NCBI GenBank assembly: GCA_026996895.1
Contig: JALWJX010000115.1
Span: forward strand, 1 to 36,998
Direction of reading: 5' to 3'
DNA from: Candidatus Kapaibacterium sp.
Lineage (GTDB): Bacteria; Bacteroidota; Ignavibacteria; Kapaibacteriales; WFXC01
DNA: 36,998 nucleotides
The notes under the pieces are model-generated. The model was not told the DNA's origin, did no database searches, and was given only the letters and a program-made list of their open reading frames with translations. A program made the translations under genes and the position numbers. Positions 25,399 through 36,998 of this stretch are shown piece after piece (the stretch's first letter is position 1; every line of letters starts with the position of its first letter).

Positions 25399-28300
25399 CT
25401 ACGGCACCTGCGTTACCACAAAGGTATTGTTGCGAATCAGGGATCGATCGGAAGCATTGACCACACCGTCCAGCGTTGCATCTTCCGTCACATAGCCGGT
25501 AGAAAAGAGCGCATTCCGCGCCCGTACCCGATCCCGCGCATTGATGATCCCATCCAGCGCAACATCTCCACCATACGCAGCCGCTTTTCCGGATGGCAGA
25601 ATTGCTGCTGGAGCAGCAAAATCGGAAAAGAGATTGGCGGTAGTCGTCATCTCAAATGGAGTACTGCTCCCAATCTGGAGTGATACCGGGACATTGCTCA
25701 TCAACGGAATATGGTTGCGATGGTGCACACTGAGATAATAACTCCCGGCTGGAACAAGGGTGCTGGGCACCAGCGCCTGCGGAAAGCCGGATTCATCCAG
25801 AACGGTACCATCTGACCGCAGCAGTGCTGCCGTCGTCGCCACGATAATCGAAGCATTGGTGGCGGAACGAAAGCGGATGAGAATCCAATCAACAACATTC
25901 GTTGCCGCTGTACTTCGCTGCTCCATTCCAGCGTAGAAATAAGGAGCCGCTGTAAAGGGCTGGTTCAGCGGCAGAGAAGCTCCCAACAACGTCTGCATCG
26001 TGCCAGATGTTGTCGCCCCCTGAAGCATTACCCGCAAGTTGACGGCTGTCTGCGTGGAACTGTAAATGCTCAAAGATGCGGGCAACTCATCAGCGATAGT
26101 GGGATCGGTAGTAACAAAAATGCGGATCGATGCGCCGGTTGTCGGTGCATCGGGAACCGTCCACCCATAGCTGCCGGTATTCGGTACTGCTGCTGCAAGC
26201 GGCTGCCACGCCTGATGACTCCATCGCCGCCACTGCAGCGTGACCGATGGAATGCTTCCACTCCACGTCCAGGTGATCGATGTCACTGCTCCACTCCAGA
26301 GCACCGTCCCCGCCGTTGGCATAAGCAGCGTCAGGGTTGGAGCAAATGGCGTCGCCTGGACTGGTGAGGAGCGGTCAGAGGAAAAGCTGCCCACCAGCGT
26401 CCGAACCGCATATTCATACGTTGTCCCGTTCGTTACCGAGTGATCGGCAAACACCGTCTGGGTCGTTGTGGTAATTTGTGAAAAAGTACCGGTCGTCAGC
26501 CGGCGGTCGATCGCATATCCTGTGACACCACTGGAGGTCGATGCCAGCCACGACAGAGTAACAACGGCATTTCCTGCTGTTGCGACAACGGAAGAAGGCG
26601 GAAAGATTGGAACAATGGTAAAGAACCCATCGCTTTGATCGCTCACGGCTGGATCTCCTGCATCGGAAACCCGGATCAACGCCATTGTGGTTGGTTCGTC
26701 TGGCACTGTCCAGAGCATGCTTCCTGTTGTTGCCGCAGTGGTTGCGATGGTTGTCCAACTGCTTCCGCCCGTGGTGGAATACGCAACCGTTACGGTTGTC
26801 ACATTCACCGACTGCCACGTTACCGAGTAGCTCAATCCCACCTGCCACTGCTCACCACCATTAGGCTGATGGACCGTGATGGAAGCAGCCGTCGCCGGTG
26901 ATACGATCGTAAACGGTGCGTTGCTGCGATCTTCAACCATCGGCATATCAGCAAAAGCGATGCGGATCAGTGCGGTGGTCGTTGCAACGGCAGGGACCGT
27001 CCAGAGCAAGGAACCGGTGTTGCTGGTCGCCGACGCAATGGTACTCCACGATTGTCCACCATTGGAAGAAAACTCAATCCGAACCGGTGTACTGGTGCAA
27101 TTGGTACTCCACTGGATCACCTGCTGCGTTCCTGCTGTCAGCGTTTCGTACCCATTGGGATAGACCACCGTTGGTGGCAACACATATCGAAAGCGCATCA
27201 TTGGTCGGTAGTTCGATGTAAAACCACTGCTGAGCTGGCAGATATCCGTTGTTCCCCCTGCAACCACCGTTGCATTGAAACGCGCGTTGCTCATATAGGT
27301 CTGCGTGTTCTCTGTACCCGTGAAAGTGTTTTCAAAACAGGTCTGGACAATCAGATTGGAATCCGGGGACAAAGCGAAGGGCTGCGAAAAAGAATATTCA
27401 TTCCAGCCAGTGTGTGGAGTGGTCACGCTGAGCGAGGTAACCGTCGTAAAATTCGATGGGGCTGCGAAAGCAGTGCTCACTGCAGTATCCGACGTGTGTG
27501 CCAGTCCGATCGACCAGTTGGAATTTGGACTCGAACGGACGGTGGCAACATTAAAGGCTATCGCTGTCAGGAATACTGTGCCGGGGACCGGTATCTCGTG
27601 TCGGCGGATCAGCATCTGGTGCTTCGACCCGTTGACGCTATAAAATCCGTATGGCGCAGGGAAACCTTGTACGTAATTCACGTTCCTTGGCTCACCAACG
27701 ATGAATTCTGAAGTCGTAGCATTGACCACCTCAAACGCGCCGGTCAGCGAGTCATTCTCGACGTTTGCATCATCTGGATGGAGCGTGCGGGCAAAGCACA
27801 TATACTGGTGCGTATTGTTCAAATGCACCGGGGGTAACGTCAGCGTGTAGCTGGTACGCGGAAGCAGGGAAACCGGCAATGTGTCCTGATGTCGATAGAC
27901 GGTATCCCACGTGATCCGATCAACGATGGTATAGCGATACGGAATGGAAGAAATGGTGGAATCGCCTGCGTTGTGAACGGTGAACTCAGGAGCAAAACAG
28001 CCGCTGATCTTGCTCCAGGACGCAGGAAATACCAGATCCGTCACCTCCAGATCCACAGGGACGGTAATGCCGAACAACACACTCGTGGTCGAAACCGTGG
28101 GATTATCCAGTGCGGAAACTCGAATCCGTGCCTGCTGTGTTGAATACGCTGGCACTGTCCAGTCAAGGTGGACCGTCCCATAGCTTACCCTGACATAATA
28201 CCGATCCTCGATAAGCTGCCACGTCTTGCCATCGTCTGGACTCCACTCTACCGTCACGAACATGTCCGAAGAAACCGAAAAGCTGATCACCACAGAATCC

Positions 28301-29925
28301 CCTGCCGTGTAGGTCGTGGAAGATGTTGGTGCAACCAGTGTAATCGTTCCATTGAGTGGAGCGCTGGAGACGGCAAAGGGGAGAGTCAACTCGTTATTGC
28401 TCATCACCGGATCTGCCGACGCATTGGTCACAGTGGCGCTCACCTGATAGATGCCCGTAGCAGTGGTACTGAAATTCGCAAAACTGAGCGTCGCGGTTGA
28501 AAGCCCCGCTAAGGAGGCAAGGACCGCGGTAGAACTGTAGACCGTTGTCCCACTACTTGTCGCGATACGGACCGATACCGTCAGTGACGTTTCCGCCGTA
28601 TTCCCCCCATTTTGCACCACAACCTGTGGCGTAATGGTTGCTGTGGTCCCATAGACGCCGCCGGGCACTGGCTGGAGCATTGTGACCAGTCGGAGATCGT
28701 GGTTCTGCGGCTTTGACGTTGCGGTTAGGCACGCCGCCTGCTCAACCTTCTGGCGGATATATGCAGCAACGACCGGATGGAAATAGAGACTGCGGGAAGA
28801 GCAGTAACTCATAATCGTCCCCGCCCGAGCTACAGTCGTACTGAAACATCCCCCTGGGGGAACAGCACAGGAATCGATCGGGGGATTCCAGAAGCAGTCG
28901 TGAGTATGCCGCGATCCAAAGTTGTGTCCCAGCTCGTGCGACATTACAAAAGCATCCCACGTGTATGTGGAAGAGGGATAGTTGTAAGTCGCAAAAATTC
29001 CTGAAACTCCGTAGCCATAATTGCTGCTGCACAGCTTATCGATATAAGCACGTCCTCCAATATCGGCACGCACCAGCAAATGCGTCAGGGTACGGCGAAC
29101 GTGGGTCATATTCGAATTCCAGTAGGAGCGAAGCTGTGTCAGCAGCGTTGCGGTGTTGGTTCCAGTATATGGTCCAGTCGTTGTCCATATTCGCAAGAAA
29201 TTGATCCGGAGTTGGCATCGGACATCTCGCTGGTAGATCGCAGAGACAGCAGCAACCAGAGCAAAAGCATATCGAACAGCACGCCCCACACTCTGTCCCA
29301 GAAAATCATAGTACCGTTTGTCGCACTCAATGGCTAAATCTGCCCGGTACATCGTCGGCGACCATTGTTGTTGCTGTTGCCGCCGCTTTCGGAACTGCGG
29401 GATCTGCTCCGGCGCTACCGGTTCCGCCTGACAAAAAAGTTCTCGCTCCAGCGCCGTATCCACTACCAGCCGGTACGTTCGATCTGACGCCTGCTGGAAC
29501 GAAAACAACTGGCGAACCGGTTGCGCCAGCGAAAGAAATCCAAAAATCTCATCCTCAAACACCAGCAGATGCACAAAGCTCCCCGGAATCTCTGCAATAT
29601 CCCCCAGAAAGGCGCGATGCCGCGGTGGGGTGAGCATTGCAAACGCCGTGTCACTCGCGCGCAAAATTACTGCGGTTGGACTCAATAAAGCAAAAGAACG
29701 GAGTTGCAACGTAAGCTCGACCCCATTCCACCAGAGAGGAACGCAAACAGTTGTATCGGTAGCCCTCAACAACTTTCCCACCTCCTCACGTTGCAGAACA
29801 TACCGATGATCTTCTCCAGGCTGGAAAAGGTAGTAGCTAGGACACTTCTTTTTCGAGTCTCCTTCCTGTGCCCACATTGGCACACCATACGCCAAAAGGG
29901 CGACAAGTAACCATAGTGCCCACAT
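25399..29925 (-). CDS. large secreted M12B-type metalloprotease with Ig-like, FN3 and dockerin-like domains
   Basis: A 1508-residue exported protein with a signal peptide (1-20, ending MWAQ). A propeptide-like region (about 21-205) precedes a reprolysin-like zinc protease. Zinc ligands are H330, H334 and H340 with catalytic E331 (HELGHNFGSRHTHDC), and the Met-turn is TIMSYC near 371. Next come CARDB-like beta modules (about 405-515 and 622-735). Four Ig-like repeats each contain WTVP followed by an IR[IV] strand (about 524-620, 918-1010, 1015-1105 and 1195-1285), with an FN3 domain near 1105-1190. A VVDWILIRFRSA / AGSYYLSVHHRNH module (about 1292-1450) precedes two dockerin-like repeats at the end (DVALDGIINARDR and DATLDGVVNASDR). 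GGGGGA lies six bases before the ATG. It probably degrades extracellular protein; the C-terminal modules may anchor or sort it. Confidence 0.88.
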   Translation of the reverse strand: MWALWLLVALLAYGVPMWAQEGDSKKKCPSYYLFQPGEDHRYVLQREEVGKLLRATDTTVCVPLWWNGVELTLQLRSFALLSPTAVILRASDTAFAMLTPPRHRAFLGDIAEIPGSFVHLLVFEDEIFGFLSLAQPVRQLFSFQQASDRTYRLVVDTALERELFCQAEPVAPEQIPQFRKRRQQQQQWSPTMYRADLAIECDKRYYDFLGQSVGRAVRYAFALVAAVSAIYQRDVRCQLRINFLRIWTTTGPYTGTNTATLLTQLRSYWNSNMTHVRRTLTHLLVRADIGGRAYIDKLCSSNYGYGVSGIFATYNYPSSTYTWDAFVMSHELGHNFGSRHTHDCFWNPPIDSCAVPPGGCFSTTVARAGTIMSYCSSRSLYFHPVVAAYIRQKVEQAACLTATSKPQNHDLRLVTMLQPVPGGVYGTTATITPQVVVQNGGNTAETSLTVSVRIATSSGTTVYSSTAVLASLAGLSTATLSFANFSTTATGIYQVSATVTNASADPVMSNNELTLPFAVSSAPLNGTITLVAPTSSTTYTAGDSVVISFSVSSDMFVTVEWSPDDGKTWQLIEDRYYVRVSYGTVHLDWTVPAYSTQQARIRVSALDNPTVSTTSVLFGITVPVDLEVTDLVFPASWSKISGCFAPEFTVHNAGDSTISSIPYRYTIVDRITWDTVYRHQDTLPVSLLPRTSYTLTLPPVHLNNTHQYMCFARTLHPDDANVENDSLTGAFEVVNATTSEFIVGEPRNVNYVQGFPAPYGFYSVNGSKHQMLIRRHEIPVPGTVFLTAIAFNVATVRSSPNSNWSIGLAHTSDTAVSTAFAAPSNFTTVTSLSVTTPHTGWNEYSFSQPFALSPDSNLIVQTCFENTFTGTENTQTYMSNARFNATVVAGGTTDICQLSSGFTSNYRPMMRFRYVLPPTVVYPNGYETLTAGTQQVIQWSTNCTSTPVRIEFSSNGGQSWSTIASATSNTGSLLWTVPAVATTTALIRIAFADMPMVEDRSNAPFTIVSPATAASITVHQPNGGEQWQVGLSYSVTWQSVNVTTVTVAYSTTGGSSWTTIATTAATTGSMLWTVPDEPTTMALIRVSDAGDPAVSDQSDGFFTIVPIFPPSSVVATAGNAVVTLSWLASTSSGVTGYAIDRRLTTGTFSQITTTTQTVFADHSVTNGTTYEYAVRTLVGSFSSDRSSPVQATPFAPTLTLLMPTAGTVLWSGAVTSITWTWSGSIPSVTLQWRRWSHQAWQPLAAAVPNTGSYGWTVPDAPTTGASIRIFVTTDPTIADELPASLSIYSSTQTAVNLRVMLQGATTSGTMQTLLGASLPLNQPFTAAPYFYAGMEQRSTAATNVVDWILIRFRSATNASIIVATTAALLRSDGTVLDESGFPQALVPSTLVPAGSYYLSVHHRNHIPLMSNVPVSLQIGSSTPFEMTTTANLFSDFAAPAAILPSGKAAAYGGDVALDGIINARDRVRARNALFSTGYVTEDATLDGVVNASDRSLIRNNTFVVTQVP

Positions 29926-36309: not shown

Positions 36310-36333
36310 CTGGGAACGCCGGCTTTAGCCGGC
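36310..36333. repeat. hairpin repeat unit, CTCCCAGT family (reverse orientation)
   Basis: CTGGGAAC, then stem GCCGGC, loop TTTA, stem GCCGGC. It is the reverse complement of the unit at 15804-15827 with a single flank change. Confidence 0.85.
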
Positions 36334-36343
36334 AAAGAAAATA

Positions 36344-36391
36344 GTAGACAAGCCTGTGGCTTGTTCTGGACAATCCAGAGGATTATCCTAC
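36344..36391. repeat. GTAG...CTAC double-hairpin element with different stems
   Basis: Bounded by GTAG and CTAC, it has two hairpins: ACAAGCC-TGT-GGCTTGT and GGACAATCC-AGA-GGATTATCC (one mismatch). The architecture equals that of 15710-15763 and 36584-36636, but the stem sequences are unrelated. Confidence 0.65.
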
Positions 36392-36442
36392 CACGGAATG
36401 CAGTCTAAAGTGTGCACTCCCAGTGGCAAGCGAGCGTTCCTG

Positions 36443-36493
36443 CTGGGAGCGCCGACTTTAGTCGGCAATGCACGCTGAAGCGTGCGCTCCCAG
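36443..36493. repeat. 51-bp inverted-repeat element with two internal hairpins
   Basis: Ends CTGGGAGCGC (36443-36452) and GCGCTCCCAG (36484-36493) are perfect inverted repeats. Between them are GCCGAC-TTTA-GTCGGC (36451-36466) and CACGC-TGAA-GCGTG (36471-36484). The whole can fold as a three-way, cloverleaf-like structure. A partial unit, GCAGTC-TAAA-GTGTGC then ACTCCCAGT, lies just before it at 36400-36424. Confidence 0.85.
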
Positions 36494-36583
36494 TACGTGC
36501 ATCTTAAAGCGTGCGCCTCTCTTTTGGAGCGCCAACCTTCGCCGGCAAAGGATGCCCGCTATAGGGTGTACCTCAAGGAACGT

Positions 36584-36636
36584 GTAGGGACGAAGCAATG
36601 CTTCGCCCGATGGGCGACCAGCCGGGTCGCCCCTAC
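36584..36636. repeat. GTAG...CTAC double-hairpin element, copy 2
   Basis: GTAGGGACGAAGCA/TGCTTCGCCC, followed by GGGCGACC/GGGTCGCCCCTAC. It is the reverse complement, with few changes, of the element at 15710-15763. A third hairpin, CCCTCTC-CTTCCGG-GAGAGGG, follows at 36649-36669. Confidence 0.8.
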
Positions 36637-36725
36637 AGGGGGCAATTCCCTCTCCTTCCGGGAGAGGGTTCGGGGAAGGGAATTTGCCTGCTGAAATGTG
36701 CGCTCCCGGACCTCTTTCAACGGTC

Positions 36726-36756
36726 TTGCCTGTGTCCGGAATTTTTTGTATATTTG
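36726..36756 (+). promoter_or_regulatory. Bacteroidota-type promoter upstream of the (GT)n gene
   Basis: TATATTTG at 36749-36756 is an exact TAnnTTTG (-7) box, and TTG at 36726-36728 lies 20 bases before it, matching the -33/-7 spacing of the Bacteroides sigma factor. It is followed 44 bases later by the ATG at 36801. This is sequence evidence only. Confidence 0.45.
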
Positions 36757-36800: not shown

Positions 36801-36998
36801 ATGATGAAACTGAAAACATTTTCTGCAAATCGTGTGTGTGTGTGTGTGTGTGTGTGTGTACACACTCCTGTTTGCGATGACCCTTCCAGCACTTGCCCAG
36901 GGCTTGCACGTCTTTGAACGCACCATCGGACTTTCCAACGCTGTGACCCGAACCTTTGATCTGGAAAAACCCGCCGTGGTCAGAGAAGCAATCGTGGG
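36801..36998 (+). CDS. 5' end of a secreted-protein gene with a (GT)14 tract in the signal peptide; currently out of frame (partial)
   Basis: The ATG at 36801 (AGGA eight bases upstream) encodes MMKLKTFSANR and then Val-Cys repeats from the GT tract. In the frame used by this ATG the product ends at a stop at 36915-36917, after about 38 residues. One base over, the sequence after the tract reads YTLLFAMTLPALAQ, then GLHVFERTIGLSNAV, and stays open to the window edge. This is a classical signal-peptide end with cleavage near ALA-Q/G, then a mature protein. With 15 (or 12) GT units the two parts join into one signal peptide. A GTG inside the tract could start the downstream frame but would lack the basic N-terminal region. 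The protein family is not recognisable from the 30 or so mature residues visible. Confidence 0.7.
36832..36859. repeat. (GT)14 dinucleotide microsatellite
   Basis: Fourteen perfect GT units, followed directly by ACACAC. It lies inside the coding start of a secreted protein. In every frame the tract encodes alternating Val and Cys, so length changes keep a hydrophobic stretch while shifting the frame downstream. Confidence 0.95.

Follow-up and report, generated by a model that had tools for sequence, protein, structure and literature searches.

Does a perfect run of 14 GT units between the start codon and the remainder of a signal peptide act as an on/off switch for the gene that contains it, as the original prediction for this locus proposed? 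The run lies near the end of the stretch of DNA analysed here (36,998 nucleotides of Candidatus Kapaibacterium sp., hereafter the window). Since the window is the complete contig C115, which ends 139 bases past the tract, the gene runs off the contig.

A re-reading of the sequence bore out the proposed split gene to the base. On the forward strand, the start codon and basic n-region of a signal peptide (ATG ... MMKLKTFSANR, 36801..36831) are followed by the (GT)14 tract (36832..36859, 100% perfect), which encodes Val-Cys in every frame and which repeat searches and comparison with paralogues and orthologues point to as the phase switch. The junction and the end of the signal peptide, TLLFAMTLPALAQ (36860..36900, forward strand), are one base off the frame of the ATG, as read from the sequence and from comparison of copies; signal peptides were judged by eye throughout. 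The mature secreted protein starts at 36901 and is cut by the contig end at 36998 (forward strand), and its residues there are identical to those of a second copy in the same genome, C27, whose mature protein is approximately 500 amino acids long. Translation from the ATG at 36801 with the assembled 14 repeats yields MMKLKTFSANRVCVCVCVCVHTPVCDDPSSTCPGLARL and stops at the TGA at 36915..36917 (forward strand), while the mature frame, one frame off this ATG, stays open beyond TLLFAMTLPALAQ. At this junction only repeat numbers divisible by three (n = 6, 9, 12 or 15) would join the ATG, the signal peptide and the mature frame, and with 13 or 16 repeats the product would end at the TGA at 36878..36880 (forward strand). 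Both of these points had been foreseen and are correct as read from the sequence, and copies C7 and C27 end in the same way as the latter. A first-order model of one strand expects 0.0004 tracts of (GT)≥8 per 2.7 Mb, and 2e-11 for 14 units, which rules out chance as the origin of the tract.

Promoters of Bacteroidota follow the pattern TTG / TAnnTTTG. A candidate promoter read by eye from the sequence at 36726..36756 (forward strand; TTG at 36726-36728, a 20-base spacer and TATATTTG at 36749-36756) fits this pattern, and it is near-identical across nearly all copies of the family described below. Further upstream, short degenerate intergenic repeats (GGAGCGCCGACTTTAGTCGGCAA, TGCACGCTGAAGCGTGCGCTCCC) occupy positions 36313-36550 and 36399-36707 of the window and resemble sequence located 5' of other copies.

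The original prediction treated the tract as a single locus. It is instead one of about eleven family members in the source genome, and the family is itself one of at least three families of secreted proteins that bear such tracts. In this genome (a draft of 138 contigs, 97.5% complete), the 309-base end of the window matched fourteen further places, the weakest of which were promoter or tract fragments only; many lie at contig ends, as expected of long repeats. Nine copies carried a tract of 5 to 16 units (C115, 14; C27, 12; C7, 13; C71, 16; C59, 6; C131, 8; C132, 13, at a contig end; C47, 9; C135, 5), and contigs C20 and C105 end inside the leader. Two congeneric genomes, also recorded as Candidatus Kapaibacterium, contained nine (G001) and three (G002) further tract-bearing copies, and matches in more distant members of the order were absent or weak. 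A search of plasmid records did not find the locus. All tracts of (GT)≥8 in G001 and G002 fell within this family, as did all but one in the source genome; the exception, (CA)11 in C64, is located in another signal peptide.

The promoter-like sequence, the ATG and the 31-base leader were conserved among the copies. In 21/21 tract-bearing copies from the three genomes, the ATG lay exactly 31 bases 5' of the tract and the n-region took the form M-x-x-x-K-T-F/L-S/A-A/T-N. The phase was readable in 20 of these 21 copies (by hand for C27 and C59), of which 4 were ON and 16 OFF, with OFF copies occupying both wrong frames. The ON copies (C135, n = 5; G001:C27, n = 12; G001:C45, n = 9; G001:C32, n = 10) have one uninterrupted frame that runs from the ATG across the signal peptide and on into the mature sequence, so that the predicted start and joined frame can be seen directly, for example in C135 of the source genome with (GT)5. 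The repeat number that gives the ON state varies by copy because the junction sequence that follows the tract is not the same in every copy. The OFF state was commoner than expected, although not significantly (ON share 4/20, versus an expected one third; P = 0.15).

Comparison among relatives, which had been suggested as a check, showed that repeat number differs between orthologues as well as between paralogues: C27 and G002:C90 carry 12 versus 13 units, C47 and G002:C50 carry 9 versus 12, and C131 and G002:C159 carry 8 versus 7 while being 98.7% identical over 3.7 kb. For the last two, the match extends no more than ~220 bases upstream of the tract, and these cassettes may therefore occupy different genomic places. 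Behind the tract, complete stop-free frames of 493-499 amino acids were present in seven copies, and dN/dS between orthologues ranged from 0.11 to 0.25. The values for C27/G002:C90 (0.11) and C131/G002:C159 (0.21) come from pairs in which both members are OFF. The frames behind OFF tracts are thus kept by purifying selection, which genes that are never read would not retain.

A survey of simple repeats in stretches totalling 1.2 Mb, and comparison with relatives, revealed that GT is not the only unit at this position. Two unrelated families of secreted proteins in the genus have repeats of CA, CT, TCCAT, 10-base or 13-base units there, and both include ON and OFF orthologues; none of the unit lengths, GT included, is a multiple of 3. 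In one of them, family C, the (CA)11 tract at C64:16804-16825 lies in the signal peptide and is in frame, and homologues carry CT at the same place, (CT)14 and OFF in G002 but (CT)13 and ON in G001. These two homologues are orthologous, with 93% DNA identity and a dN/dS of 0.20. The product of C64 is a candidate type A cargo of the T9SS: it and its relatives scored 21-22 bits against TIGR04183 (Por_Secre_tail), below the cut-off of 23, and the source genome encodes the core T9SS protein SprA. The third family consists of cysteine-rich proteins of about 200 amino acids with the tract in the signal peptide. Its member at C83:13271-13350 carries (TCCAT)16 and is ON, whereas a 96%-identical orthologue, G001:C43, carries (TCCAT)8 and is OFF (dN/dS 0.16). 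The longer units of this family, two of 10 bases and one of 13, occur in OFF copies with five repeats of AGCATTTCCA, four of GGAGTCTTTC and seven of the 13-base unit.

Related arrangements were present elsewhere in the order. G012, a single-contig genome from another family of the order, encodes three paralogous cysteine-rich proteins with (CT)13 OFF, (CT)11 ON and (CT)18 OFF (at C1 near 473692, 851169 and 2262520), the tracts following the start codon and an MNS leader. Similar OFF tracts precede large secreted proteins in G030 and G056. Where GT tracts occur elsewhere in the Kapaibacteria (G089, G044, G075 and others), they are mostly outside signal peptides and several are upstream of start codons, so they were not counted as support. 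Tracts of (GT)10-20 are numerous in G089, which represents a different family within the order; several are 5' of the starts of short secreted proteins (MKRFLFIAAATVIVAACS), and these are possibly promoter-type or leader-type switches. A 14-base poly-G tract in C136 (L137:19410-19423) is a possible further slippage site.

These observations are best explained by a contingency gene family whose members would be switched by slipped-strand changes in a GT repeat within the signal-peptide coding sequence, a reading to which we assign a probability of about 0.88 from the sequence comparisons. Slippage of DNA polymerase in (GT)n would add or remove 2-base units, one or several at a time. Because the start and n-region lie on one side of the tract and the remainder of the hydrophobic core on the other, the frame is continuous at only one repeat number in three. 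A repeat number in frame would lead to a secreted protein of ~500 amino acids and any other to a short aborted peptide. With about eleven copies, each of which would switch on its own, cells of one population would display differing sets of surface or secreted proteins. The prediction of phase variation by slippage is strongly supported by the coexistence of ON and OFF forms, by the agreement of the joined frame in ON copies with the predicted one, by the differing repeat numbers and by the selection acting behind OFF tracts; switching within a population, secretion, a surface role and coupling to the second gene described below are inferred. As a point against phase variation, the source genome encodes MutS, which could keep slippage rates low.

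Three other accounts of the tracts were weighed. The proteins might be produced constantly, with translation beginning at a GTG inside the tract and the repeat number being irrelevant, since a GTG is available in each frame of the tract and the mature frame of OFF copies is open back through it. However, this would leave unaccounted for the ATG and basic n-region placed 31 bases from the tract in every one of the 21 copies, and a signal peptide started within the tract would have no basic residues. An in-tract start also cannot explain the unrelated families with TCCAT, CT, 10-base or 13-base units at the same place, as those units contain neither ATG nor GTG. We therefore regard constant production as unlikely, although it is the strongest of the three.

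It is more improbable still that the copies are decaying pseudogenes whose repeat length drifts to no effect. The 16 of 20 copies that are out of frame and the truncated 3' cassettes (C82, G001:C36 and G001:C44) would agree with decay, but drift would neither keep the frame open behind OFF tracts nor yield intact ON copies, and both the seven complete frames and the dN/dS values of 0.11-0.25 speak against it. Least probable of all is that errors of assembly or sequencing account for the repeat numbers, all copies being in frame in the cell. The assemblies are draft metagenome assemblies and several copies do sit at contig ends; the source genome and G002 are drafts whose contigs often end at repeats, so that a single repeat count may represent the majority or an error. 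The tracts themselves are nevertheless no artefact, because they recur in three assemblies, inside contigs (C27, C131, G001:C2 and G002:C159) and in the single-contig relative, and the difference between (TCCAT)16 and (TCCAT)8 amounts to 40 bases.

Two full-length members of the GT family matched no Pfam family, and members showed only a weak match to a beta-propeller lipoprotein. A structure model of low confidence (mean pLDDT 55) was all-beta, and it matched propeller structures among others, which at this confidence are a hint only; the mature protein of ~500 amino acids is predicted to be all-beta and propeller-like. A second gene lay within about 60 bases 3' of the first in 7/7 copies that could be read past the stop, and wherever this gene read cleanly it began with a signal-peptide-like sequence; the longest frame at G002:C90 differs, so the second gene may be frameshifted there. 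The one copy of its protein that was tested contained PF17517 (IgGFc_binding, E 2.2e-29) and a choice-of-anchor D domain (E 2.9e-13). This gene may be co-expressed with the phase-variable first gene. In C82 (1-1400) and the two other truncated cassettes, 3' fragments of the first gene are followed by the second, IgGFc-binding-type gene, and these fragments are possible silent cassettes or recombination remnants. Elsewhere in the window, positions 25402-29925 of the reverse strand encode a 1508-amino-acid protein, probably secreted, with an M12B reprolysin-like metalloprotease domain and a Reelin-type subrepeat.

To our knowledge, almost all descriptions of simple-repeat phase variation of exported proteins concern host-adapted pathogens and commensals, mainly human pathogens such as Neisseria and Helicobacter, and our literature search found no paper linking Kapabacteria with phase variation. 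More tentatively, and at somewhat less than even odds, we suggest that Kapaibacteria have repeatedly and independently gained slippage tracts of different units in unrelated signal peptides, and that these, together with cassette recombination (of which the shared leaders, differing mature parts and 3' fragments may be signs), generate combinatorial surface variation of the Opa type. If so, such variation would operate in a lineage that we assume to be free-living, perhaps against phages and predators or for attachment. With several unrelated families in hand that have different units at one position of the signal peptide, public metagenome reads allow a direct test of what selects phase variation outside the classic pathogens, and of whether such switches favour the signal peptide owing to its tolerance of odd repeat-encoded sequence.

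The locus had been called unusual for a switch built into a signal peptide in such a host. What is unusual is indeed the lineage in which the switch occurs and how many unrelated repeat units are used; the position of the repeat is not in itself unusual, since opa and oipA provide precedents. In Neisseria, the opa genes number about 11 and have CTCTT repeated within the leader (PMC3745409), and the present family resembles them in having a short tandem repeat in the signal-peptide coding region whose number sets the frame, and in being multicopy (~11 genes) and spread over the chromosome with each copy independent. It differs in its GT unit, in the predicted all-beta, propeller-like product of ~500 amino acids where opa has CTCTT and the Opa beta-barrel, in the second secreted gene that follows, and in its host, an uncultured member of the Kapaibacteria. 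In Helicobacter pylori, oipA has CT repeats in its signal-peptide coding region (PMC10564699), and here too the repeat unit is a dinucleotide, lies at the 5' end where the signal peptide is encoded, and would determine the ON or OFF state by its number, with family C even sharing the CT unit. Unlike oipA, the family described here encodes an unrelated mature protein and has about eleven copies, with further families in the same genome. The proteins are related to neither Opa nor Hop; a check against the Opa beta-barrel found no Pfam family in the two full-length members and a low-confidence model that is propeller-like. Because the mechanism equals that of opa and oipA while the protein family is neither, the novelty of this system lies in its host and its breadth rather than in its mechanism.
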